A DNA stretch of 64,000 nucleotides. It comes from Amycolatopsis acidiphila (lineage in GTDB: Bacteria > Actinomycetota > Actinomycetes > Mycobacteriales > Pseudonocardiaceae). The stretch lies in NCBI RefSeq assembly GCF_021391495.1, contig NZ_CP090063.1, forward strand, positions 6,076,001 through 6,140,000, given 5' to 3'. The position numbers were made by a program, and so were the translations under genes. This document shows, piece by piece, positions 45,129-57,787 of this stretch; the first letter of the stretch is position 1; each line of letters begins with the position of its first letter. The notes under the pieces are model-generated. The model did not search any database and was not told the DNA's origin. It saw nothing but the letters and a program-made list of their open reading frames with translations.

Positions 45129-46472
45129 CTAACGGACGGGCGTCCCGAGATGGGTCTCCGCAGTGGCCTGGATCGGTAGCTCCACACCGGCGGCCTGCCC
45201 GTCGAGGCGCTGCGGGCCGTGAACCGGCCCTCGCAGGGCCGCGGCGAGCCGCTCGGCGGTCGGCTCCTCGTCGCACATGAAGGACGGTGAGCCGTTGCCG
45301 GCATGCATCGCGGCCAGCAGCTCGGCCTCGGTGTCCACCAGCACGACGCTGTCCACCGGGCCGAACGGCTCCGCCTGGTGCAGCGGCGACGTCGCCGGCG
45401 CCTTCAGGATCGCGATCGGCGCGAAGTACGCCGCCGTGTCCTGGTCCGGCACGAACCGACCCTCGTCGAGGGAGCCGCGGTGCAACAGCACCGCGCCCTG
45501 ACCGAGCGCATCATCGACTATGTCGTGCAGTTCCTGCACCCTGCCATCGTTGACCATCGGCCCGAAATCCAGCTCGGGCAACGGATCGGCCGGATCCGCG
45601 ACAGCCAGCGGATGGCCGAAGCGCAGGTCTCGCACCGCGGGCAGGTACGCGGCGAGAAAGTCGTCGAACAGGGAACGCTGCACCACGAACCGCTGCCTGT
45701 CTTGCCCGAGCGACGCTCGAACGCGAGGGGTCAGCTTAGGCCAGTCGCTGAATCCCCAGACACCCCAGCAACTCACGCCATGTTGGTCCAAATAGGACGT
45801 CCGGCCGAGCATAGGTGAGGTCGACAGCTCCGCCTCGCCGCCGCTCACCAATGTCACCGGTACCCCGTGCCGGGCGGCGAGCGACGTGGCCAGTGTCAGG
45901 CAGTTCACTCCCCCCTCGGCCGGCGCGTTCGCGATCGCCGCGTTGCCCGTCAGCGCCTGCACGAGCATCGCGTGCATCAGCACGCCCATCGGATGCCGCC
46001 AGCTCGCGAGATTGCCGACCGGTCCCCGCAGTGGGTCACACGGCTCGAGCATGTGCTCGGCGTACCAACGGACTCCCTCGACGCAGCCGTCCACATCGGA
46101 CCGCGCCGCCTGCCACGTCCTGCCGGTCTCCCACACCAGCAGCAATGCCAGCAGCTCACCATGCTCGGCGAAGTCGTCGAGCGCGGCGAGCACCCGGGCC
46201 TTTCGCTCGGGCAGGGACGCGAACGACCAGGTGCGATGTTCGTTCAGGCTCGCCCGCACCGCACGCTTCACGTCGATCGGCGCCAGCGGCGCCGGCCCCG
46301 TGAGCACGGTGCCGTCGATCGGTGACCTCAGCTCGCCCGGTGTGCCTTCCAGGCGCCGGCGACCGCCCCAGAAGTTGAGCAGCCTGCCCTCGCCGAACGC
46401 ATCCGGCGCCACGGACCAGCATCGGCTGTAAACGCTTTCCCACTCGGTTCCCGGCTTGACGAAAAGGCTCAT
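45129..46472 (-). CDS. Aldehyde-dehydrogenase-fold protein lacking the catalytic cysteine segment
   Basis: A 447-residue ALDH-superfamily protein. The coenzyme part is recognisable (LPERKARVLAALDDFAEHGELLALLLVWETGRTW, HPMGVLMHAMLVQALTGNAAIANAPAEGG). Where the family has a GQ-x-C or KQRCTAYPR-type stretch before the VVQRSLFDDF strand, this protein reads GQDRQRFVVQRSLFDDF. The residues that would include the nucleophilic Cys are missing. A dead enzyme, a different chemistry or a regulatory role is possible. ATG overlaps the stop of the ketopantoate-reductase-like gene (ATGA). The pair lies behind the operator at 47475-47495. Confidence 0.75.
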   Translation of the reverse strand: MSLFVKPGTEWESVYSRCWSVAPDAFGEGRLLNFWGGRRRLEGTPGELRSPIDGTVLTGPAPLAPIDVKRAVRASLNEHRTWSFASLPERKARVLAALDDFAEHGELLALLLVWETGRTWQAARSDVDGCVEGVRWYAEHMLEPCDPLRGPVGNLASWRHPMGVLMHAMLVQALTGNAAIANAPAEGGVNCLTLATSLAARHGVPVTLVSGGEAELSTSPMLGRTSYLDQHGVSCWGVWGFSDWPKLTPRVRASLGQDRQRFVVQRSLFDDFLAAYLPAVRDLRFGHPLAVADPADPLPELDFGPMVNDGRVQELHDIVDDALGQGAVLLHRGSLDEGRFVPDQDTAAYFAPIAILKAPATSPLHQAEPFGPVDSVVLVDTEAELLAAMHAGNGSPSFMCDEEPTAERLAAALRGPVHGPQRLDGQAAGVELPIQATAETHLGTPVR

Positions 46473-47449
46473 ACCGCCTCCTTCAGCACCTGCTCGTTCA
46501 GCAGTCCGGCCAGTGCGTTGACCACGCGCAGGGTCGGCACCGGCGCACCCGTCAGATCGGCCAGCTCCACCACGGCGGCCAGAATGGCGTCGAGCTCGAG
46601 CGGCTTGCCCTTTTCCAGGTCCTGCAACGTGGACGTCTTGTGCTCGCCGGTCCGCTCGGCGCCCGCCAGGCGCCGGTCGATGGACACGTCGGGATGCACG
46701 CCGAGCCGGGCGGCGACGTCCAGCGTCTCCCGCATCATCCGCACGACCACCGACCGCGTGCCGGGGTGCTTGCAGATGCCCAGCATGGTCGCGCGGGTGA
46801 GTGCGCTGATCGGGTTGAACGCGATGTTGCCCATCAGCTTGATCCAGATGTCGCGGCGCAGGTCCGGCTCCACAGGGCACTTGAGCCCGCCGGCGACCAT
46901 CGCGTCCGCGAACTCGCGGCAGCGCGCGGAGATCGAGCCGTCCGGCTCGCCGATCGAGAGCCGGGTGCCTTCGAGATGACGGATCTCGCCGGGAGCCGAG
47001 ATCTCCGTCGCCGCGTAGACGACGCAACCGATCGCCCGGTGCATCGGCAGCACGGCGGTGACCGCGCCGTCCGGGTCCACCGTTTCGACGCGGCGGCCCT
47101 GGTAGGGGCCGGACAGCCCGTGGAAGTACCACCACGGGATGCCGTTCTGCGCGGCGATGACGGAGGTCCGCTCGTGCAGCAGCGGCTCGATCAACGGCCC
47201 GCAGGTGGCGTAGGAGTTGGCCTTCAGGCCGAGGAACACGTGGTCGACCGGGCCGACCTCGGCCGGGTCGTCGGTCGCGTGCGGGTGGGCGGTGAAATCG
47301 CCCCGGTCACTCAGGACCCGCACGCCGGATTCGCGGATGGCCTTCAGATGAGGACCGCGGGCGATGAGATGCACTTCAGCACCCGCCCGGTGGAGGCTTG
47401 CGCCGACATACGCGCCGATGGCGCCGGCACCGAGAACAGCGACTTTCAC
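46469..47449 (-). CDS. Ketopantoate-reductase-like dehydrogenase (PanE/ApbA family)
   Basis: A 326-residue NADP-type reductase with the motif VAVLGAGAIGAYVGASLHRAG at residues 3-23, VFLGLKANSY, and the C-terminal helical domain with the catalytic Lys and Asn in IWIKLMGNIAFNPISALT. In PanE these residues reduce ketopantoate; many relatives act on other 2-oxo acids. In this cluster of CoA-thioester genes, a 2-hydroxy/2-oxo acid other than pantoate seems more likely. It starts 29 bases from one copy of the shared operator and is divergent from the ThDP enzyme. Confidence 0.83.
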   Translation of the reverse strand: MKVAVLGAGAIGAYVGASLHRAGAEVHLIARGPHLKAIRESGVRVLSDRGDFTAHPHATDDPAEVGPVDHVFLGLKANSYATCGPLIEPLLHERTSVIAAQNGIPWWYFHGLSGPYQGRRVETVDPDGAVTAVLPMHRAIGCVVYAATEISAPGEIRHLEGTRLSIGEPDGSISARCREFADAMVAGGLKCPVEPDLRRDIWIKLMGNIAFNPISALTRATMLGICKHPGTRSVVVRMMRETLDVAARLGVHPDVSIDRRLAGAERTGEHKTSTLQDLEKGKPLELDAILAAVVELADLTGAPVPTLRVVNALAGLLNEQVLKEAV

Positions 47450-47474
47450 GGTGTCTCCTCAATGTTGCGTCACC

Positions 47475-47495
47475 ATTGTATGCAGTATACGGTAT
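47475..47495. promoter_or_regulatory. Shared operator, site 1 (upstream of panE-like gene)
   Basis: The core GTATGCAGTATAC (47478-47490) has GTAT/ATAC arms, followed by GGTAT. It is a GntR/FCD-type palindrome and the best copy of the motif found five times between 47.4 and 57.8 kb. Confidence 0.7.
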
Positions 47496-47564
47496 GAGCT
47501 GTTCTGGTCAATGGCTTCGAAGCTCTGGACAAGCGCGGCGATCGAGGGTCACCATGACTCCATA

Positions 47565-47585
47565 TCGTATGCAGTATTCGGTAGC
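47565..47585. promoter_or_regulatory. Shared operator, site 2 (upstream of ThDP enzyme gene)
   Basis: GTATGCAGTATTCGGTA at 47568-47584 matches site 1 at all but one base. It is 30 bases upstream of the ThDP-enzyme start and 90 bases from site 1, so the two could be bound by one regulator to control both divergent transcripts. Confidence 0.7.
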
Positions 47586-47609
47586 CACAAAGTTGTGAGG
47601 AGATGGCGC

Positions 47610-49289
47610 ATGTCAGGCGAACCCGGGTTGATCTCCGGCGGGCATCTCGTGGCGAAAGCACTGAAGGCGGAGGGCGTCGAGGTCGTCTTCACCCTGTGCG
47701 GCGGCCACATCATCGACATCTACGACGGCTGCGTGGACGAGGGCATCGATGTGATCGACGTCCGCCACGAGCAGGTGGCGGCCCACGCCGCCGACGGTTA
47801 CGCGCGCGTCACCGGCAAACCCGGCTGCGCCGTCGTCACGGCGGGCCCCGGCACCACCGACGCGGTGACCGGCGTCGCGAACGCGCTGCGCGCGGAGAGT
47901 CCCATGCTGCTCATCGGCGGCCAGGGCGCGCTCAGCCAGCACAAGATGGGGTCGCTGCAGGACCTGCCGCACGTCGACATGATGTCGCCGATCACCAAGT
48001 TCGCCGCGACCGTGCCGTCCACGGAACGCGCCGCGGACCTGGTCTCGATGGCGTTCCGCGAGTGCTACCACGGCGCACCGGGGCCGTCGTTCCTGGAGAT
48101 CCCGCGCGACGTGCTGGACGCGAAGGTGCCGATCGAGAAGGCCCGCGTGCCGAAGGCAGGCGGCTACCGCGCCTCCACCCGCACCGCGGGCGACCCGGAG
48201 GCGATCGAGCGGCTGGCGGACCTCGTCGTGCACGCGGAGAAGCCGTGCGTCCTGCTGGGCAGCCAGGTGTGGACCTGCCGCGCGACCGACGCGGCGATCG
48301 AGTTCGTGCGCGAGCTGAACGTGCCGGCCTTCATGAACGGCTCCGGACGCGGGACGCTGGCCCCCGGCGACCCGCACCACCTGCAGCTGGCCCGCCGCTA
48401 CGCGTTCCAGAACGCCGACCTGATCATCATCGTCGGCACGCCGTTCGACTTCCGGATGGGCTACGGCAAGCGGCTCTCCCCCGACGCGACGGTCGTGCAG
48501 ATCGACCTCGACTACCGCACGGTGGGCAAGAACCGCGACGTCGACCTCGGCATCGTCGGTGACGCGGGGCTCGTGCTCTCGTCGGTCACCCAGGCCGCGT
48601 CCGGTCGCATCGACAACGGTGCCACCGGTCGCAAGGAGTGGCTGGAGGAGCTGCGCACGGTGGAGACGCAGGCGTACGAGAAGCGCCTGCCGCGTCAGCA
48701 TTCCGACGCCAACCCGATCGACCCGTACCGGCTGGTCCACGAGATCAACGAGTTCCTCACCCCGGACTCGATCTACGTCGGCGACGGCGGCGACATCGTC
48801 ACCTTCTCCGGCCAGGTGGTGCAGCCGAAGGCGCCGGGGCACTGGATGGACCCGGGTCCGCTGGGCACCCTCGGCGTCGGCGTGCCGTTCGTGCTCGCCG
48901 CGAAGTACGCCCGGCCCGACCAGGAGGTGGTGGCGCTGTTCGGCGACGGCGCGTTCAGCCTCACCGGCTGGGACTTCGAGACGCTGGTGCGGTTCAACCT
49001 GCCGTTCGTCGGCATCGTCGGCAACAACTCGTCGATGAACCAGATCCGCTACGGCCAGATCCAGAAGTACGGCGACGACCGCGGCCGGGTCGGCAACACG
49101 CTCGGCGACGTGCCCTACAGCGAGTTCGCCAAGATGCTCGGCGGCTACGGCGAAGAGGTGCGCGACCCCGCCGACATCCAGCCCGCGTTGCAACGCGCCC
49201 GCGAGTCGGGGAAGCCGTCACTGATCAACGTGTGGGTGGACCCGGACGTGTACGCGCCGGGGACCATGAACCAGACCATGTACAAGTAA
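47610..49289 (+). CDS. ThDP-dependent oxalyl-CoA decarboxylase / 2-hydroxyacyl-CoA lyase-like enzyme
   Basis: A 559-residue enzyme of the acetolactate-synthase superfamily. The ThDP-activating Glu is in [16 protein letters not shown], and the ThDP/Mg motif [13 protein letters not shown]...NN lies near 449-475. The three domains are complete. The next gene is a formyl-CoA:oxalate CoA-transferase-like gene, the usual partner of oxalyl-CoA decarboxylase, so conversion of oxalyl-CoA to formyl-CoA plus CO2 is the leading guess. A 2-hydroxyacyl-CoA lyase remains possible, because the C-terminus ([12 protein letters not shown]) differs from that of Oxalobacter Oxc. GAGGAG is 8 bases before ATG 47610. 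Confidence 0.8.
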
Positions 49290-49300
49290 GGGGAAACGTC

Positions 49301-50527
49301 ATGGGAAAGGCACTCGAGGGCGTGCGCGTCCTGGACATGACGCATGTCCAATCAGGACCGTCCTGCACCCAGATCCTGGCCTGGCTCGGCGCCGACGTGG
49401 TGAAGCTGGAGGCGCCCGGCGGGGACATCACGCGCAAGCAGCTGCGGGATCTGCCCGATGTGGACAGTCTCTACTTCACGATGCTCAACTGCAACAAGCG
49501 CAGCATCACGCTCAACATGAAGAGCGAGGAGGGCAAGCGGATCTTCACCGACCTGCTGCCCCGCTTCGACATCCTCGCGGAGAACTTCGGGCCCGGTGCG
49601 ATCGACCGGATGGGCTTCACCTGGGACCGGCTGCAGGAGATCAACCCGCGGCTGATCTTCGCCTCCATCAAGGGTTTCGGCGACGGCCCGTACACGCATT
49701 TCAAGGCGTACGAGGTGGTCGCGCAGGCGATGGGCGGGTCGATGAGCACGACCGGCTTCGCGGACGGGCCGCCGCTGGCGACCGGGGCGCAGATCGGCGA
49801 CTCGGGCACCGGGATCCACACGGTGGCGGGCATCCTCGCCGCGTTGTACCAGCGGGAGCACACCGGCCGCGGGCAGCGGGTCACCGTCGCGATGCAGCAC
49901 GCCGTGCTGAACCTGGCCCGCGTCAAGCTGCGTGACCAGCAGCGGCTGACCCACGGGCCGCTCAAGGAGTACCCGAACAAGGAGTTCGGCGACACCGTGC
50001 CGCGGTCGGGCAACGCCTCGGGCGGCGGCCAGCCGGGCTGGGCGGTCAAATGCGCGCCGGGCGGCCCGAACGACTACATCTACGTCATCGTCCAGCCCGT
50101 CGGCTGGGAGCCGATCACGAAGCTGATCGGCCGTCCCGAGCTGGCCGAGGACCCCGAGTGGTCGACGCCGGAGGCACGGCTGAACAAGCTCGACAAGATG
50201 TTCCAGCTGATCGAGGACTGGAGCATCGACCACGGCAAGTGGGAGGTGCTGGCGAAGCTCAACGCGCAGAACATCCCCTGCGGGCCGATCCTGTCCACCA
50301 AGGAGATCATCGAGGACGAGTCGCTGGCGGCCAACGACATGGTCGTGAAGGTCGAGCACCCGGAGCGCGGTCAGTTCAGCACGGTCGGCTGCCCGATCAA
50401 GCTGTCCGACTCTCCGGTCGACGTCGAGCGGTCCCCGTTGCTGGGCGAGCACAACGAAGAGGTCTACGCGCGCGAGCTCGGCCTTGGCGAGCAGCTCGCG
50501 GGACTCAAGGCCAAGGGAGTCATCTGA
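49301..50527 (+). CDS. frc: Class III CoA-transferase, formyl-CoA:oxalate CoA-transferase (Frc)-like
   Basis: A 408-residue class III CoA-transferase. The N-terminus [30 protein letters not shown] is strongly Frc-like. The catalytic Asp is present in [11 protein letters not shown], where Oxalobacter Frc has Asp169 in ALGDSNSGMH. The glycine loop reads [10 protein letters not shown], against NAGGGGQPGW in Frc. It would move CoA between formyl-CoA (or another donor) and oxalate. AAGGGG precedes ATG by 7 bases. Its stop shares a base with the next start (TGATG), so the ThDP enzyme, Frc and ligase genes form one operon. Confidence 0.86.
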
Positions 50528-52650
50528 TGGACCAGAGCATCGTGCGCGAGATCCTGGACAAGGTCCGCGCCGAGGGCCGGGACTCGCTCACCGCACCGGA
50601 GGGCAAGCAGATCTGCGACGCCTACGGCATTCCCACCCCGCGCGAGGGCCTCGCCACGACCGCGGACGAGGCCGCCGCGCTCGCCGGGGAGATCGGCGGC
50701 CCGGTCGCGTGCAAGATCGTCTCGCCGGACATCCTGCACAAGACCGAGGCCGGTGGCGTGCTCGTGGGCGTGCAGGGCGCGGACGCGGTCCGCGAGGCGT
50801 TCGACAAGATCATCGCGAATGCCAAGGCGCACAACGCCTCCGCGAGCATCACCGGCATCCAGGTACAGCAGATGCTCAGTGGTGGCCAGGAGGTCATCGT
50901 CGGCGCGACCACCGAACCGACGTTCGGCAAGGTCGTCGCGTTCGGTCTCGGCGGCGTGCTCGTCGAGGTGCTCAAGGACGTGACGTTCCGCCTGGCGCCG
51001 CTCGACCGCGCCGCGGCGAGGTCGATGATCGACGGGATCAAGGCGGCGGAGGTGCTGCGCGGGGTCCGGGGCGCGGAGGGGGTGGACCGCGACGCGCTCG
51101 CCGACGTCATCCAGAAGGTGTCCACTTTGGTCACCGACTTCCCGGAGATCCGCGAGTTCGACCTGAACCCGGTGTTCGCCACCGCGGACGGGGCCTGCGC
51201 GGCGGACGTGCGGATCCTGGTCGAGACGGGTGAGGTGAGCGAGCCGGTCCGGCCGTCGCGCGAAGAGATCCTGCGGGTGATGAACCGGCTGATGAACCCG
51301 CGGTCGGTCGCGGTCATCGGGGCGTCCGACGCCGAGGGCAAGATCGGCAACTCGGTGATGAAGAACCTCATCAACGGCGGCTACGCGGGCGAGATCTACC
51401 CGATCAACCCGAAGGCCGACGAGATAATGGGGCGCAAGGCGTACGCCGCAATCGGGGACATCCCGGGCGAGGTGGACGTCGCGGTGTTCGCGATCCCGGC
51501 GAAGTTCGTGGCGGCCGCGCTCACCGAATGCGGCGAGAAGGGCGTCCCGGCGGCGGTGCTCATCCCGTCCGGGTTCGCCGAGACCGGCAACCAGGAGCTG
51601 CAGGACGAGATCGTCGAGATCGGCAAGCGGTACGGCGTGCGGATGCTGGGGCCAAACATCTACGGCTACTACTACACGCCGCGGAACCTGTGCGCCACGT
51701 TCTGCACCCCGTACGACGTGCGGGGCGGGGTCGCGCTGACTTCGCAGAGCGGCGGGATCGGCATGGCGATCCTCGGGTTCAGCCGGACCACGAAGATGGG
51801 CGTGTCGGCCATCGTCGGCCTCGGTAACAAGTCCGATGTGGACGAGGACGACCTGCTGACGTTCTTCGAGGAGGACGCCAACACCCAGTGCGTCGCGATG
51901 CACCTGGAGGATCTCAAGGACGGGCGCGCGTTCGTCTCCGCGGCGCAGCGGATCACGAAGAAGAAGCCCGTCGTGGTGCTCAAGGCCGGTCGCACGGACA
52001 TGGGCGCGCGGGCCGCGGGCTCCCATACCGGCGCGCTCGCCGGTGACGACAAGGTGTACGACGACATCCTGCGCCAAGCGGGCGTGGTGCGGGCACCGGG
52101 CCTGAACGAGATGCTCGAGTACGCGCGGTCGCTGCCACTGATGCCGACGCCCAAGGGCGAGAACATCGTGATCATCACCGGCGCCGGTGGCTCGGGTGTG
52201 CTGCTCTCGGATGCCTGTGTCGACAACGGACTGTCCCTGATGGACATCCCGCCGGACCTCGACGAGGCGTTCCGGCGGTTCATCCCGCCATTCGGCGCCG
52301 CGGGCAACCCGATCGACATCACCGGTGGCGAGCCGCCGTCCACCTACGAGGCCACGATCCGGCTGGGGTTGGAGGACCCGCGGATCCACGCGCTCATCCT
52401 GGGTTACTGGCACACGATCGTCACCCCGCCGATGGTCTTCGCCGAGCTGACCGCACGGGTGGTCGAGGAGTACCGGGCGAAGGGCATCGACAAGCCGGTG
52501 GTGGCTTCACTGGCCGGTGACACCGAGGTCGAGAAGGCGTGCGAGTACCTGTTCGACCACAAGGTGATCGCCTACCCGTACACGACGGAACGCCCGGTTG
52601 CCGTGCTGGGCGCGAAGTACCGGTGGGCGCGGGCGGCGGGCCTGTTGTAG
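50527..52650 (+). CDS. ADP-forming acyl-CoA synthetase, ATP-grasp domain first
   Basis: A 707-residue NDP-forming CoA ligase. The ATP-grasp domain comes first (about 15-235, PVACKIVSPDILHKTEAGGVLVGV), then the CoA-binding domain (about 257-350, PRSVAVIGASDAEGKIGNSVMKNL) and the ligase domains (LTSQSGGIGMAILGF). The phospho-His motif GSHTGALAGDDKVYDDIL is intact, unlike in the Pat-type protein at 12587-15295. It can turn an acyl-CoA into the free acid with ATP formation or run in reverse. Downstream of Frc and the ThDP enzyme, salvage of formyl-CoA energy or activation of the substrate acid would fit. It ends the operon before a strong hairpin. Confidence 0.87.
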   Translation: MDQSIVREILDKVRAEGRDSLTAPEGKQICDAYGIPTPREGLATTADEAAALAGEIGGPVACKIVSPDILHKTEAGGVLVGVQGADAVREAFDKIIANAKAHNASASITGIQVQQMLSGGQEVIVGATTEPTFGKVVAFGLGGVLVEVLKDVTFRLAPLDRAAARSMIDGIKAAEVLRGVRGAEGVDRDALADVIQKVSTLVTDFPEIREFDLNPVFATADGACAADVRILVETGEVSEPVRPSREEILRVMNRLMNPRSVAVIGASDAEGKIGNSVMKNLINGGYAGEIYPINPKADEIMGRKAYAAIGDIPGEVDVAVFAIPAKFVAAALTECGEKGVPAAVLIPSGFAETGNQELQDEIVEIGKRYGVRMLGPNIYGYYYTPRNLCATFCTPYDVRGGVALTSQSGGIGMAILGFSRTTKMGVSAIVGLGNKSDVDEDDLLTFFEEDANTQCVAMHLEDLKDGRAFVSAAQRITKKKPVVVLKAGRTDMGARAAGSHTGALAGDDKVYDDILRQAGVVRAPGLNEMLEYARSLPLMPTPKGENIVIITGAGGSGVLLSDACVDNGLSLMDIPPDLDEAFRRFIPPFGAAGNPIDITGGEPPSTYEATIRLGLEDPRIHALILGYWHTIVTPPMVFAELTARVVEEYRAKGIDKPVVASLAGDTEVEKACEYLFDHKVIAYPYTTERPVAVLGAKYRWARAAGLL

Positions 52651-52666
52651 GAACACGAGCACTGCA

Positions 52667-52704
52667 GTCCGGCCGGTGACGAAAGAAATCGTCACCGGCC
52701 GGAC
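52667..52704. terminator. 14-bp hairpin ending the CoA-ligase operon
   Basis: GTCCGGCCGGTGAC (52667-52680) and GTCACCGGCCGGAC (52691-52704) form a perfect stem around the A-rich loop GAAAGAAATC. It is 17 bases after the ligase stop and also faces the end of the convergent gntR gene. Confidence 0.85.
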
Positions 52705-52757
52705 AGTTCTGTCAGGAGCTGTTTGACGGGCTGGGTTCGAGCCCTGCCGTCCGAGGG

Positions 52758-53495
52758 TCAGGCGCGCGGGGTGCGGCGGCGCCGGGTGTGCAGGGCGACG
52801 GGCTCCTCGGCCGGCTTGTTCTGCCGCTCTTCGAGGTAGGACTGGCGGGTGCGGCCGGTGTGCTCGCGCATGATCTGGGCGGCCTTGTCGGCGTCCCCGC
52901 GCTCGATGGCGTCGATCAGCCTCGCGTGTTCCTGCCAGGACTTCTTGCCGCGCTGACGGGCGATGGGCGTGTAGTACCAGCGGACGCGGCGGTCCACCTG
53001 CATGACGAAGTCGAGCAGCACCTGGTTGCCCGACAGCTCCGTCACCGCGCGGTGCAGCTCGGCGTTCGCGGCGACCATGCCGTCGATGTCGTCGGAGGCC
53101 AGGGCCGCTTCGCCGGCCGCGCAGATCTGGCGCAGGCGCCCGACGCTCGCGTCGTCGGCGTGCTCGGCGGCGAGGCGGGCGGACTCGCTCTCCAGGATGG
53201 ACCGGACCGCCAGCAGCTGGTCCACCTCGGTGTCGGCCGGGGCGTGCACGAAGGCGCCGTAGCCAGGGCGCAGGTCCACCCAGCCCTCGGAGTTCAGCAG
53301 CTGCAGCGCTTCCCGGATCGGCTGGCGGGAGACGCCGAGCATCTCGGCCAGCTCGCTTTCCACGAGGTGCTGGCCGGGAGCCAGCTGGCGGGAGATGATC
53401 AGCTCCTGCATCGCCTGGTACACGCGTTCGCGCAACGGCACGGGTCGATCGATCCGGCGCGCCGCCATGTCCTGCGGCAACTCACTCGGCGGCAT
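52758..53495 (-). CDS. GntR-family regulator, FCD subfamily
   Basis: A 245-residue regulator. The N-terminal winged helix is at about 20-80 (LRERVYQAMQELIISRQLAPGQHLVESELAEMLGVSRQPIREALQLLNSEGWVDLRPGYGAFV). The all-helical FCD domain has likely metal/ligand His residues in NAELHRAV, QEHARLI and MREHTGRT. ATG 53495 has GGGAG 6 bases upstream; ATG 53510 lacks a site. One copy of the shared operator lies just upstream of its start, so autoregulation is likely. It is the natural candidate to bind all five sites. The last 25 residues are basic and disordered. Confidence 0.92.
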   Translation of the reverse strand: MPPSELPQDMAARRIDRPVPLRERVYQAMQELIISRQLAPGQHLVESELAEMLGVSRQPIREALQLLNSEGWVDLRPGYGAFVHAPADTEVDQLLAVRSILESESARLAAEHADDASVGRLRQICAAGEAALASDDIDGMVAANAELHRAVTELSGNQVLLDFVMQVDRRVRWYYTPIARQRGKKSWQEHARLIDAIERGDADKAAQIMREHTGRTRQSYLEERQNKPAEEPVALHTRRRRTPRA

Positions 53496-53520
53496 GCGAA
53501 CTCCCAGCATTTGGTCGACT

Positions 53521-53538
53521 GACTACAGCATACAATGG
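53521..53538. promoter_or_regulatory. Shared operator, site 3 (upstream of gntR)
   Basis: On the minus strand this reads CCATTGTATGCTGTAGTC. The first eleven bases are identical to the start of site 1 (CCATTGTATGC at 47473) and the rest is close. It is 26 bases upstream of the gntR start. Confidence 0.65.
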
Positions 53539-53990
53539 ACCGTTCTCCTCTATCGCGTGAGCTGGAGCACTACGGCACGAAACCGTCTTTTCGAGGCGGC
53601 GCAACGGAGGGCGCTCTTGAGGAGGTGGGTTCCCGTTCCGGGCGCGGCCGAACGTCGGCGATCGTGTGCGGCCATGGGCGGGTGGCGCGGAATGGAGCCG
53701 GAGCGCCGCGGACCGCCACGGGGCGGAGCGACCCAAGCCCCGGTGGACGCCGCCGAGTCGACCCGGCCCGAGCCGCCGATGGGCGCCACGGGCCGGCCCC
53801 TTCCATGCCGCCCAATGAGCGCCGGAGCTGAGTCTCCGAGGTACCGGTGACCGCCCCCGAGCCGAAGCAGTCCATCCGGCCCAAAGCGCCGACAAGCGCC
53901 ACCGAACCAACCCTCCGGAGCCAGCCGCAGACCGCCACCGAGCCCCCGCCACCGGCACCACACAAGCCGTCCACCTGCACAAACCCCTTC
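53539..53990. other. Intergenic region between gntR and sucC, no gene seen
   Basis: About 450 bases between divergent promoters. Open frames on both strands are Pro/Arg/Ser-rich with no ribosome sites and no family likeness. Apart from the two operator copies at its ends, no structure was noted. Confidence 0.55.
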
Positions 53991-53993
53991 CAC

Positions 53994-54018
53994 TCATACT
54001 GCATACAGTCTACAATAT
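53994..54018. promoter_or_regulatory. Shared operator, site 4 (upstream of sucC)
   Basis: ATACTGCATAC (53996-54006) is the complement of the core GTATGCAGTAT, and CAGTCTACAAT follows. Eleven of thirteen core bases match site 1. It ends about 16 bases before the sucC ATG, so binding would block transcription. Confidence 0.65.
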
Positions 54019-54022
54019 CCGT

Positions 54023-55192
54023 ATGGACCTCTACGAGTTTCAGGCGAAGGATCTCTTCGCCGCCCATGGTGTGCCGGTTTTGCCCGGTGCCGTTGCGAGT
54101 ACCCCGGAAGAAGCGCAGGCTGCTGCCGAGAGGATCGGTGGTCAGGTTGTGGTGAAGGCTCAGGTGAAGACTGGGGGTCGGGGTAAGGCTGGTGGTGTGA
54201 AGCTGGCCAAGGATCCGGTCGAGGCGAGGGAGAAGGCGGATGCCATCCTCGGGTTGGACATCAAGGGCCATATCACGCGCCGTGTGTTGGTGACCGAGGC
54301 GTCCGATATTGCGGAGGAGTATTACTTTTCCTTCCTGCTGGACCGCACGAACCGCACCTTCCTGGCGATGGCCTCGGCCGAGGGGGGTATGGAGATCGAG
54401 CAGTTGGCTGTGGAGCGGCCGGACGCGCTCGCGAAGGTCCCGGTCGACCCGATCGCGGGGGTGGATAAGGCGAAGGCGTTGGAGATCCTGACCGAGGGCC
54501 GCTTCCCCGGGGTGATCAAGGAGCGGGCCGCGGACGCGGTGGTGAAGCTGTGGGAGACCTTCGTCGCCGAGGACGCCACTCTGGTGGAGGTCAACCCGCT
54601 GGTCCGCGATCCGCAGGACAGGATCGTCGCCCTGGATGGCAAGGTCACCCTGGATGAGAACGCTTCCTTCCGCCACCCGGGGCACGAGGAGTTGGTGGAC
54701 AAGCAGGCCGAGGACCCGTTGGAGGCCAAGGCCAAGGCGAAGGACCTCAACTATGTCAAGCTCGACGGTGAGGTCGGCATCATCGGTAACGGTGCCGGGC
54801 TGGTGATGTCCACTCTGGATGTGGTCGCCTACGCCGGGGAGCGCCATGGTGGGGTGAAGCCGGCGAACTTCCTCGACATCGGTGGCGGTGCGTCGGCGGA
54901 GGTGATGGCCGCGGGGCTGGACGTCATCCTCAACGACCCGGCCGTGAAGAGCGTGTTCGTGAACGTGTTCGGCGGTATCACCGCTTGTGACGCGGTCGCG
55001 ACCGGCATTGTGGAGGCGTTGAAGATCCTGGGTGACGAGGCCACCAAACCGTTGGTCGTCCGGCTCGATGGCAACAACGTCGACGAAGGCCGCCGGATCC
55101 TCAACGACGCCAACCACCCGCTGGTCACCCAGGTGGACACCATGGACAACGCGGCGGACAAGGCTGCCGAGCTCGCGGCGGCAGGAGCGTAA
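54023..55192 (+). CDS. sucC: Succinate-CoA ligase beta subunit (ADP/GDP-forming)
   Basis: A 389-residue ATP-grasp subunit. The N-terminus [42 protein letters not shown], the nucleotide and Mg region [21 protein letters not shown], and the C-terminal CoA-ligase part [22 protein letters not shown] are all intact. With SucD it interconverts succinate and succinyl-CoA. Codon use in the first third is rich in G- and T-ending codons, unlike its neighbours. A GntR-type operator lies at its promoter, unusual for a housekeeping TCA gene. It may serve the neighbouring CoA-transfer pathway, and a second sucCD elsewhere in the genome would support that. Confidence 0.92.
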
Positions 55193-55196
55193 GACA

Positions 55197-56081
55197 ATGT
55201 CGATTTTCCTTGACTCCCACAGCAAGATCATCGTGCAGGGCATCACCGGGTCCGAGGGCACCAAACACGCGACCAAGATGCTGCAGGCCGGGGCGAACAT
55301 CGTCGGCGGGGTGAACGCCCGCAAGGCCGGGCAGACCGTCACCATCGCCGGTAAGGACCTCACCGTGTTCGGCACGGTCGAGGAAGCCATCAAGGAGACC
55401 GGCGCCGACGTGTCGGTCATTTTCGTGCCGCCGAAGTTCGCCAAGGACGCCGTGATCGAGGCCATCGACGCCGAGATCCCGCTGGCCGTGGTGATCACCG
55501 AGGGCATCCCGGTGCACGACTCCGCCTACTTCTGGGCGCACGCCGTGGCGAAGGGCAACACCACCCGCATCATCGGCCCGAACTGCCCCGGCGTCATCTC
55601 CCCCGGCAAGTCCAACGCCGGCATCATCCCAGCCGACATCACCGGCCCCGGCAAGATCGGCCTGGTGTCCAAGTCCGGCACCCTGACCTACCAGATGATG
55701 TACGAACTACGTGACATCGGGTTCTCCACCGCGGTCGGGATCGGCGGGGACCCGGTCATCGGCACCACCCACATCGACGCCCTCGAAGCCTTCCAGAACG
55801 ACCCCGACACCGAGGTCATCGTCATGATCGGCGAGATCGGCGGCGACGCCGAAGAACGCGCCGCCACCTACATCAACCAGAACGTGACCAAACCCGTCGT
55901 CGGATACGTCGCGGGCTTCACCGCCCCCGAAGGCAAAACCATGGGCCACGCCGGCGCCATCGTCTCCGGCTCCGCCGGCACCGCCCAAGCCAAAAAAGAA
56001 GCCCTCGAAGCCGCAGGCGTCAAAGTCGGCAAAACACCCTCCGAAACCGCCGACCTCGCCCGCAAGGCCATTCAGGTGTAG
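55197..56081 (+). CDS. sucD: Succinate-CoA ligase alpha subunit
   Basis: A 294-residue subunit with the CoA-binding start [20 protein letters not shown], the motif [13 protein letters not shown], and the phospho-histidine His251 in [20 protein letters not shown] within the sucC end serves as ribosome site; four bases separate the genes. The last third uses A- and C-ending codons (AAA, GAA, CCC) heavily, the reverse of the start of sucC. Its end overlaps the convergent DinB-like gene by 10 bases. Confidence 0.93.
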
Positions 56082-56512
56082 AGGTCGCGCAGCAACGCCG
56101 CTTCGGCGGTGTGGTGGATGAACTCATCCACGATGTGCAGAGCGAAGGACCGCCGGGTCGCGTGACCGTAGCGCCCGGCGGTCTTTCCTATGGGCGAGGC
56201 CAGCGACTCCTCGGTCACCGACGAGAGATGGCCGCGCCAAGTCGCGTACGCCTCCTCCACCGATGCGAGAGCCGTTGTGGCGTCGACGACTTCGCGCACC
56301 GGGTTCGGCGACGGGGCGAGGCCGAGCCACCGGGCGTTGCGCTCCTCGCGGAGAGTGTCGGCGATATGCGTCAGCCGCCACCGCAACGTGACCCGGTCGT
56401 CCGCGCCGGGCTGCCAACGCCATTCTTCGTCGGTCAACCCGTCCATCCGCGTCCGGAAACGCTGCCAGCAGTAGTCGAACAGCTCGAGGATGTCGTCGCG
56501 CGAGGACTTCAC
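56072..56512 (-). CDS. DinB-like four-helix protein
   Basis: A 146-residue protein of the DinB/mycothiol-transferase fold. A His in RLTHIADTL and two in [17 protein letters not shown] are placed like the metal-binding triad of this fold. Such proteins transfer low-molecular thiols or hydrolyse small substrates. GTG start overlaps the stop of the upstream transporter gene, so the two are cotranscribed. Its job next to the transporter is unclear. Confidence 0.8.
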
Positions 56513-57729
56513 ATCCGCCAGAGTGCCAGAACCGGCCGCCCGGGCTGGCGCAACGAGGCCAGCAGCGCGGCGGCGGCGATGCCCAGCACCGCGGTCACCA
56601 CGAAGCCGGTGGCACCGACGTACGCGGCGAGCAGCACGCCGATCAGTCCGCCCGCGGCCTTCGCCCCGTAGAAGAGCCCGAAGTTCGGCAGTCCGAGCCG
56701 CTCACCGAAATGTCCTTCGACGACACCCGGCAGCAGCGCGTAACACGCCCCGCACGCAGCGCCGGCGAGACAGGCACCGAAGACCACGAGCGAGCCCACC
56801 ACCAGCAACTGCGCCAGTCCGCCGGCCGCCAGCGCTCCACAAAGGACGGTTTGGCGGCCGAACCGCGCGCCCGCCCAGCCGGCCCCCGCCCGGGCGACCC
56901 CGCTCGCGCCCGCGAACAACGCCGCCGCCAGGATCCCCTTGAACGCCGCCAGATAGGCGATGTCGAACAAGGAGATCGCCGCGGCACAGGAAACCGCGAA
57001 GTACAGCTGACGCGAAGCCGGGCAGCGCACGACCTCCGCGATGGAGTACTGCCGGATCGGCGGACGGTTGCGGCGCAGGCTCGGGTTGACCGTCTTGTCC
57101 AGCGCCCACCGCTGCGGGTCGACGTGCTGGGGCCACCAGTCCTCCGGCGGGTTGCGCAGCACGAGTGCGCTCGCCCCGGCCAGCACCACCACGACGATGG
57201 CCGCGGCCCCGAAGCCGAGCAGCAGGAACGGAAGCGCGCCGTAGGCGAAGGCACCTGTCACCAAGGCGACTCGCGACGACCGCTCGGGATACCAGCGGGT
57301 CACGACTCGTACGCAGGTGCCGTAGACGAGTCCGGCGCCGAGACCGCCGAGTACCGCGTGGCTGACGAGCACCACCACGAAATCGCCGGACCCGGCCAGC
57401 GCGACGAACCCGGACGCGCACAGCACGGCGCCCACCAGCAGCGTGGCGGCCGGGGTGAACCGCGCCCGCGCCGCCGGATAGACGCTCGCGCTCTGGCAGA
57501 CCGTCCACAGCGCGAGGACCCAGCATCCCTGCTGCCAGGTCCAGCCCCGGTCCGCCACGATCGCGGGCAGCAGTGCGCCGTACCCGTACTGCCCGGCACC
57601 GGCCGCGAGCATCGCGGCCCAGGTCGCGCCGAGCATCCAGGCCCGAGGCCTGCCGAGCAGGGCCCGGTCGCTCTCGCCGATCCGGTAGCGCCTGCCGTAG
57701 AAGTCGCGAATCACTCCGGCTTTCTGCAT
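56509..57729 (-). CDS. MFS transporter, oxalate/formate antiporter (OFA)-like
   Basis: A 406-residue transporter with about twelve hydrophobic segments. The N-terminus DFYGRRYRIGESDRALLGRPRAWMLGATWAAMLAAGAGQYGYGALLP and the late region LPGVVEGHFGERLGLPNFGLFYGAKAAGGLIG resemble the OFA family that includes OxlT. This fits oxalate or a related dicarboxylate as cargo and ties the gene to the ThDP enzyme/Frc operon 7 kb away. ATG 57729 lies inside a copy of the shared operator. No upstream ribosome site is seen, so translation may be leaderless or begin a little later. The DinB-like gene follows with overlap. Confidence 0.8.
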   Translation of the reverse strand: MQKAGVIRDFYGRRYRIGESDRALLGRPRAWMLGATWAAMLAAGAGQYGYGALLPAIVADRGWTWQQGCWVLALWTVCQSASVYPAARARFTPAATLLVGAVLCASGFVALAGSGDFVVVLVSHAVLGGLGAGLVYGTCVRVVTRWYPERSSRVALVTGAFAYGALPFLLLGFGAAAIVVVVLAGASALVLRNPPEDWWPQHVDPQRWALDKTVNPSLRRNRPPIRQYSIAEVVRCPASRQLYFAVSCAAAISLFDIAYLAAFKGILAAALFAGASGVARAGAGWAGARFGRQTVLCGALAAGGLAQLLVVGSLVVFGACLAGAACGACYALLPGVVEGHFGERLGLPNFGLFYGAKAAGGLIGVLLAAYVGATGFVVTAVLGIAAAALLASLRQPGRPVLALWRM

Positions 57730-57745
57730 ACAGTATGTAGTATGC
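57725..57745. promoter_or_regulatory. Shared operator, site 5 (upstream of OFA-like transporter)
   Basis: TGCATACAGTATGTAGTATGC contains the palindrome CATACAGTATG and an extra GTATG half. The central AT-x-CAGTAT of the shared motif is kept; the arms are weaker than in sites 1-2. It overlaps the transporter ATG. Confidence 0.5.
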
Positions 57746-57787
57746 CCTTCGGGTCACTTCTCGGTCGCGGCCAGGACTCGAAAGGGT

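Follow-up and report, generated by a model that had tools for sequence, protein, structure and literature searches.

FCD-type regulators of the FadR subfamily recognise A/T-rich palindromes with GT..AC halves, while GntR operators may carry extra half-sites 7-12 nt from their centre and those of the NanR type are direct repeats of TGGTATAW (all according to the available part of PMC4494728). The closest described oxalate pathway, that of Methylobacterium extorquens and E. coli, uses Frc, Oxc and PanE2; the last of these is named oxalyl-coenzyme A (CoA) reductase in M. extorquens (available parts of PMC8411744 and PMC12686821), and the conversion of formyl-CoA to formate is marked as one of two steps without a known gene in the accessible text of PMC10192776. 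A third system of interest is the 2-hydroxyisobutyryl-CoA lyase cluster of Actinomycetospora chiangmaiensis, where a GntR gene is present and formate dehydrogenase is induced (PMC7176365, available in part). Here we describe a gene island of Amycolatopsis acidiphila, contained in a 64,000-nt stretch of its genome (contig NZ_CP090063.1, positions 6,076,001 to 6,140,000; hereafter the window), in which computation shows one conserved operator at the promoters of panE, the thdp-frc-acd operon, gntR, sucCD and a major facilitator superfamily (MFS) transporter gene, and at those of their orthologues in relatives. We hypothesize that the island is, with good probability, a negatively controlled oxalate-catabolism regulon run by its local FCD/GntR repressor.

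The island shares with FadR-subfamily regulons an FCD regulator, an A/T-rich promoter palindrome, weaker extra boxes and a proposed autoregulation; unlike the GT..AC consensus (PMC4494728, in the part available), the right half of its operator is mostly GC. The operator centre reads GTATGC in most sites, which we compare with the GT..AC halves of FCD-type palindromes, binding being predicted only. With the NanR type it has in common an FCD protein and GTAT repeats, although here the repeats form a palindrome instead of direct repeats; the regulator stays below the cut-off of the NanR model (100.5 bits against 260). No oxalate regulon was found in the available text of PMC4494728 (of three matches to 'oxal', the one listed is pyridoxal), and no description of this regulon or operator was found among the papers listed in searches of the open-licence PMC literature; the initial annotation likewise knew of no description of the motif form or of its reach to sucCD. 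The Frc equivalog and a PanE-family gene are shared with the pathway of M. extorquens and E. coli, whereas the thiamine diphosphate (ThDP)-dependent enzyme of the island falls below the Oxc cut-off and the regulon adds an ADP-forming ligase and sucCD. The likeness to the A. chiangmaiensis cluster lies in an actinomycete ThDP enzyme of the lyase type and a nearby GntR gene, formate dehydrogenase being induced there; that cluster has an AMP-type ligase where the island has Frc, and PanE and sucCD are not named in the available part of PMC7176365.

Recurrence and conservation of one operator

The 13-mer GTATGCAGTATAC has eight matches with at most three mismatches in the window against 1.75 expected, a count that none of 100 shuffles reaches, and all eight are confined to 47478-47579, 53521-54013 and 57719-57745. 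Two operators lie between the divergent panE and thdp genes, two between the divergent gntR and sucC genes, and one double site at the start of the MFS gene; the sites do precede the panE-like gene, the thdp/frc/CoA-ligase operon, gntR, sucCD and the transporter gene, as the initial annotation had proposed. The exact copy at 47478 is the only exact match in the 8.18-Mb single-contig genome. The second site is present but starts at 47567 instead of 47568, and the fourth (53994) is accompanied by a second, overlapping match at 54001 on the plus strand. Two descriptions had to be changed: the site at 53521, GTATGCTGTAGTC, said to share its first eleven bases with the first site, differs from the 13-mer at three positions, base 7 included; and the supposedly weaker site near 57725 consists of two overlapping matches (57719 minus, 57733 plus), which overlap the first ATG of the transporter gene and reach up to 24 bits.

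The 13-mer that had been given as the motif is only part of the operator. A matrix was built from relatives alone, using 84 sites with at most two mismatches from 32 related loci; 82 of the 84 are intergenic or within 60 bp of a start, and 70 are distinct. The matrix of the 70 distinct sites reads ATACTGTATGCAGTATRC followed by a GTA box, that is, a palindrome ATACTG-TATG-CAGTAT (ATACTG-N4-CAGTAT) to which a further GTA box is added. At least three of the four bases of the left arm, ATAC, occur in 44 of the 70 sites, compared with 7 and 1 at two control positions; an exact GTA box occurs in 27 (none at the control). Because the left arm lies outside the seed, it gives the palindrome independent support, and the 13-mer as the whole operator is rejected in favour of this longer form. 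Applied to the window, the relatives-only matrix finds 19 matches of at least 8 bits versus 0.47 in simulated windows, each of them in one of the three promoter spacers or at the beginning of the MFS gene; 12 reach at least 16 bits, a score absent from 100 simulations. Its 414 matches in the relatives are its own training loci and are not counted as evidence.

The reverse test used a matrix made from six window sites only, at a threshold of at least 12 bits upstream of genes in related loci. The operator was found upstream of thdp in 28/28 loci, of sucC in 23/23, of panE in 20/22 and of gntR in 26/33, as well as before homologues of the island MFS gene (4/4), MFS_N (4/4), MFS_105 (2/3) and fdhA (4/7). 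These counts cover loci that are related and in part redundant (L109 and L035 are judged to be one genome, their genes being 100% identical); the closest named relatives are Amycolatopsis loci, with gntR 93-94% and thdp 96% identical. A simple gene caller, trained on eight genes of the window, supplied the genes of the relatives; those truncated at the end of a locus were discarded. L037 (24% identity) was excluded from every comparison, and the L150 gntR row (a wrongly called frame) was not used. The initial annotation had made its case depend on enrichment of the motif near homologous clusters, and it is indeed there that the operator occurs upstream of thdp, sucC, panE and the transporter gene and of most gntR genes; the proposed reach to sucCD is borne out by the sucC counts, and the shuffles, the relatives-only matrix and the conservation in relatives together establish that the recurrence of one motif across the island is real.

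The position of the operator within the thdp promoter suggests how it may act. An alignment of 11 thdp promoters of relatives shows no variation in the segments CTGGACA and GTATGCAGTAT, and from the location of operator 2 just past the -10-like element we infer both the promoter and its repression, since a protein bound 6 bp beyond the predicted -10 would cover the transcription start. Operator 3 is proposed to serve the autoregulation of gntR (Table 1).

Table 1. Genes, operators and predicted promoter of the island (window positions; operator scores from the relatives-only matrix)
Feature	Position	Strand	Basis and remarks
Aldehyde dehydrogenase-like gene	45129..46472	-	Pfam Aldedh in two stretches
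panE, PanE/ApbA family	46469..47449	-	NCBIfam NF005089, 448.7 bits (cut-off 223)
Operator 1, panE side of panE-thdp spacer	47473..47494		31.9 bits
Predicted thdp promoter	47526..47555	+	TGGACA (47526-47531), 18-bp spacer, CACCAT (47550-47555); promoter role predicted
Operator 2, thdp promoter	47562..47583		33.0 bits; GTATGCAGTAT invariant in 11 relatives; starts 6 bp after the -10-like element
thdp, ThDP-dependent enzyme	47610..49289	+	Oxc / 2-hydroxyacyl-CoA lyase / acetolactate synthase superfamily
frc, formyl-CoA:oxalate CoA-transferase	49301..50527	+	TIGR03253; longer start 49286
acd, ADP-forming acyl-CoA ligase (ACD type, fused subunits)	50527..52650	+	Domains, SHTG segment
gntR, FCD/GntR regulator, proposed repressor	52758..53495	-	Pfam domains, orthologue alignment; alternative ATG 53510
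Operator 3, gntR promoter	53517..53538		18.9 bits; conserved in most relatives
Operator 4, sucC promoter	53990..54018		Overlapping matches on both strands, 21.0-27.5 bits
sucC, succinate-CoA ligase beta subunit	54023..55192	+	NF001913, 524.9 bits (cut-off 370)
sucD, succinate-CoA ligase alpha subunit	55197..56081	+	NF004230, 442.9 bits (cut-off 336; longer frame)
MFS transporter, weakly OFA/monocarboxylate-like	56509..57729	-	
Operator 5, MFS promoter	57715..57749		Overlapping matches at first ATG, 21.4-24.2 bits

The regulator and the content of its proposed regulon

The product of gntR passes the Pfam GntR (71.1 bits, cut-off 27) and FCD (105.1 bits, cut-off 24.3) models, and across 13 orthologues, which share 64-93% identity with it, the helix-turn-helix region hardly varies. 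Of the 56 FCD matches in the genome it is the one that falls in the window, among the operator sites, as had been annotated. In a sample of 394 genomes from the class, gntR was matched in 52 and thdp in 29 at the thresholds used, and all 29 thdp genomes are among the 52; this co-occurrence, with the conservation of the operator, supports the earlier proposal of a single regulon that would combine uptake, CoA activation, decarboxylation and CoA recycling. In family f21 (nine genomes), thdp and gntR are separated by 26-30 kb in seven genomes and by 6 kb in an eighth, and the ninth has them on different contigs; three of the four f21 islands read have panE next to an operator and near gntR. The remaining 23 genomes have gntR only, and 11 of these hold more distant proteins (family f22); nine gntR-only loci were read, with an operator of at least 8 bits in eight and fdhD nearby in six.

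Gene content under the operator varies among relatives. In Nonomuraea (L035) a single operator precedes sucC-sucD-hyi-tsr-gcl-aldH, all on one strand, with gcl and tsr passing their model cut-offs and hyi not; in L105 operators precede panE, fdhA and nuoEF-fdhG-fdhD, where FdhD passes its cut-off and FdhA is just below (642 vs 666). At several loci the cluster also contains a moeA-like gene. In many relatives (L016 and L035 among them), though not in the window, thdp-frc-acd is followed by genes for Nramp- and TerC/Alx-type metal transporters on the same strand, and a link to oxalate-bound metals is possible.

Elsewhere in the source genome, the 18-mer operator pattern has 33 matches with at most three mismatches (the reversed pattern has 14); the island accounts for 13 of the 33, many of which overlap. 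Matrix scores outside the island were obtained for loci from the pattern searches (20 of the 33 matches are listed, and four outside places are unscored), and among these scored loci two reach 25 bits. One, at 2.100 Mb, precedes an OFA-like MFS gene whose product is 51% identical to the MFS protein encoded behind acd in A. sp. GM8 (L014) and falls below the cut-offs of TIGR00890 (173.3 vs 374.85) and TIGR04259 (149.5 vs 335); the other, at 4.208 Mb, precedes a succinate-semialdehyde-dehydrogenase-like gene. A site at 3.480 Mb, between ClC channel and MarR genes, scores 18.1 bits, and the other scored outside loci are lower. The regulon probably includes the two distant 25-bit loci.

Among the pathway genes of the island, frc encodes a protein that passes the equivalog TIGR03253 (671 bits in the longer-start form, cut-off 504.2) and is 57% identical to E. 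coli Frc. Directly after it, acd encodes complete ATP-grasp, CoA-binding and ligase domains, with a conserved SHTG segment aligned with solved enzymes. The product of panE is a probable oxalyl-CoA reductase, like PanE2 of the same family. Homologues of panE stand near oxlT and gcl in Azospirillum ramasamyi, next to a GntR gene in Skermanella rosea, and, on a Rhodobacteraceae plasmid, next to an AMP-binding protein gene and five genes from a FadR-family regulator. The aldehyde dehydrogenase of the panE operon is 65% identical to its A. sp. GM8 counterpart, a figure that exceeds 90% for its neighbours in the island, and lacks a Cys-bearing segment and two further stretches that are present in L014, L035, L097 and L105; the missing Cys is presumably the catalytic one, and the island protein is probably degenerate. 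A DinB-superfamily gene (56072-56512) lies directly behind the MFS gene and also adjoins MFS in A. sp. GM8.

Alternative readings of the operator and of the substrate

Several observations weigh against an oxalate regulon under its local regulator, some concerning the operator and others the substrate, and they are gathered in this section. Genome-wide, the 13-mer with at most two mismatches has 12 matches, 4 in the island and 8 elsewhere, and its reversed control pattern has 16, as might be expected if an AT-rich word merely recurred by chance in a GC-rich genome; this explanation is scarcely credible and is rejected on the evidence of the shuffles, of the simulated windows, none of which holds a match comparable to the 12 strongest of the real one, and of the operator's conservation before orthologous genes. 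In the reverse test, 15 of 146 control upstream regions pass 12 bits (the eight highest are short frames of 82-91 aa, apparently within the panE-thdp spacer), and the score stays below 12 bits upstream of 7/33 gntR, 2/22 panE, 3/7 fdhA and 1/3 MFS_105 genes. Neither the genome's two best formate dehydrogenase-like loci nor its gcl locus showed an operator when searched. The operator could also belong to another FCD regulator of the genome, the local GntR being a mere neighbour: there are 56 FCD matches to choose from, and the operator type also accompanies more distant regulators, since in two f22 loci (L142 and L143, gntR 44-47% identical) a 30-bit operator precedes the gntR-containing operon. 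Taken with the gntR-only loci, these cases indicate that this type of operator is shared by a wider clade of regulators, and such strong operators in other operons mean that the operator alone is no proof of oxalate. Control by another regulator is nevertheless quite improbable, given the site upstream of gntR itself and the presence of gntR in every thdp genome.

A further alternative retains the regulon and the regulator and changes the substrate to a 2-hydroxy acid, the ThDP enzyme being a 2-hydroxyacyl-CoA lyase that would release an aldehyde or ketone and formyl-CoA, as in the degradation of 2-hydroxyisobutyrate by A. chiangmaiensis. The ThDP enzyme cannot simply be called Oxc: it fails the Oxc equivalog TIGR03254 (237.3 bits vs 739.4), is 25% identical to E. 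coli Oxc, and has Leu-Gln, as does the A. chiangmaiensis lyase, in place of the Oxc pair Tyr134-Glu135 (M. extorquens numbering). That lyase is also its closest solved structure, and its published cluster likewise combines a GntR gene with a formate dehydrogenase that is induced (PMC7176365, in the part available). The OFA-like character of the island transporter stands only as a weak likeness (a match to the OxlT structure 8hpj, E 9e-8), as the protein is below the cut-offs, with 74.2 bits for SfMCT, 59.9 vs 374.85 for TIGR00890 (OFA) and 54.5 vs 335 for TIGR04259. Lyase activity is a real rival, but we consider a 2-hydroxy acid regulon unlikely: the ThDP enzyme also misses the lyase equivalog NF058623 (359.4 bits, cut-off 600), Frc exceeds the cut-off of the oxalate equivalog, PanE together with gcl, tsr and hyi suits oxalyl-CoA and glyoxylate, and searches of the island with Pfam and NCBIfam models found no AMP-forming hydroxyacyl-CoA ligase.

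The oxalate reading gains from the Frc equivalog, the PanE family, and the occurrence of gcl/tsr/hyi and formate dehydrogenase under the operator in some relatives, a context that fits both a branch from oxalate to formate and CO2 and a branch to glyoxylate and glycerate. When canonical Oxc was sought in 10 regulon genomes, including the whole source genome, no match exceeded the TIGR03254 cut-off, and the regulon ThDP enzyme was the best Oxc-like match in all 10. For an oxalate regulon it is a candidate non-canonical oxalyl-CoA decarboxylase, and the best candidate for the step.

The sucCD pair and a scheme for oxalate use

The sucCD genes of the island match succinate-CoA ligase models (Table 1); malate-CoA ligase was rejected (beta-subunit model, 352.9 against 604). 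The genome has two sucC copies that are 99% identical, and the window sucCD (54021-56062) is 99.76% identical over 2,043 bp to a copy at 0.734 Mb (733661-735703), an identity that sets in shortly ahead of the start codon, extends nearly to the end of sucD and breaks at the gene borders. That copy has no operator (best score 4.9 bits within 20 kb). Comparable pairs are 99.27% identical in A. bartoniae and 96.05% in A. sp. GM8, with between-species sucCD alignments at 86-90%; in 18 other genomes of the genus, sucC matches at E 1e-60 number one in 15, two in 2 and none in 1, and in 12 more distant genomes two sucC copies are not similarly alike, as judged by their identities to the window copy. 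The highly alike pairs in the source genome, A. bartoniae and A. sp. GM8 point to gene conversion, and the pair is, on these identities, a product of within-genome homogenisation, so that the regulon would add to the dose of the ordinary succinate-CoA ligase and not supply a new enzyme. In A. bartoniae (L217/L218) the two copies have swapped flanks compared with the source genome: one copy has the operator upstream and housekeeping genes downstream, and the other has housekeeping genes upstream and is followed by an MFS gene with a 21.6-bit operator, an arrangement expected from recombination across the sucCD repeat. The pair clearly exemplifies a single homogenised enzyme served by two promoters.

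The island is very likely a single regulon for oxalate, under a regulator of an already known class, and its genes suggest the following scheme. The local FCD/GntR protein would bind the operator, with further subunits on overlapping half-sites, and cover the transcription start, until release by the binding of oxalate or a product (oxalyl-CoA, glyoxylate or formate) to its FCD domain. Oxalate would then be taken up, and Frc would shift CoA onto it from formyl-CoA or succinyl-CoA; the ThDP enzyme would decarboxylate oxalyl-CoA to formyl-CoA, while the PanE-type enzyme may reduce oxalyl-CoA to glyoxylate for the glycerate pathway. SucCD would regenerate succinyl-CoA as CoA donor, and the ADP-forming ligase may trade energy between an acyl-CoA, perhaps formyl-CoA, and ATP. 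Formate dehydrogenase and gcl/tsr/hyi would join the regulon in some relatives.

More tentatively, and with doubts that outweigh our confidence, we suggest that actinomycetes use a second, separately derived oxalyl-CoA decarboxylase (lyase/acetolactate-synthase-like, without the Tyr-Glu pair) together with an ADP-forming ligase that takes formyl-CoA to formate with a gain of ATP and, in Amycolatopsis, a private, gene-converted copy of the succinyl-CoA ligase of the tricarboxylic acid cycle, all under one FCD operator. For the use of oxalate by actinomycetes, the island offers a regulator, an operator and a set of genes that can be tested; its ThDP enzyme is a likely stand-in for canonical Oxc in the 10 examined genomes that lack it, and its ADP-forming ligase may be the gene for the step from formyl-CoA to formate.

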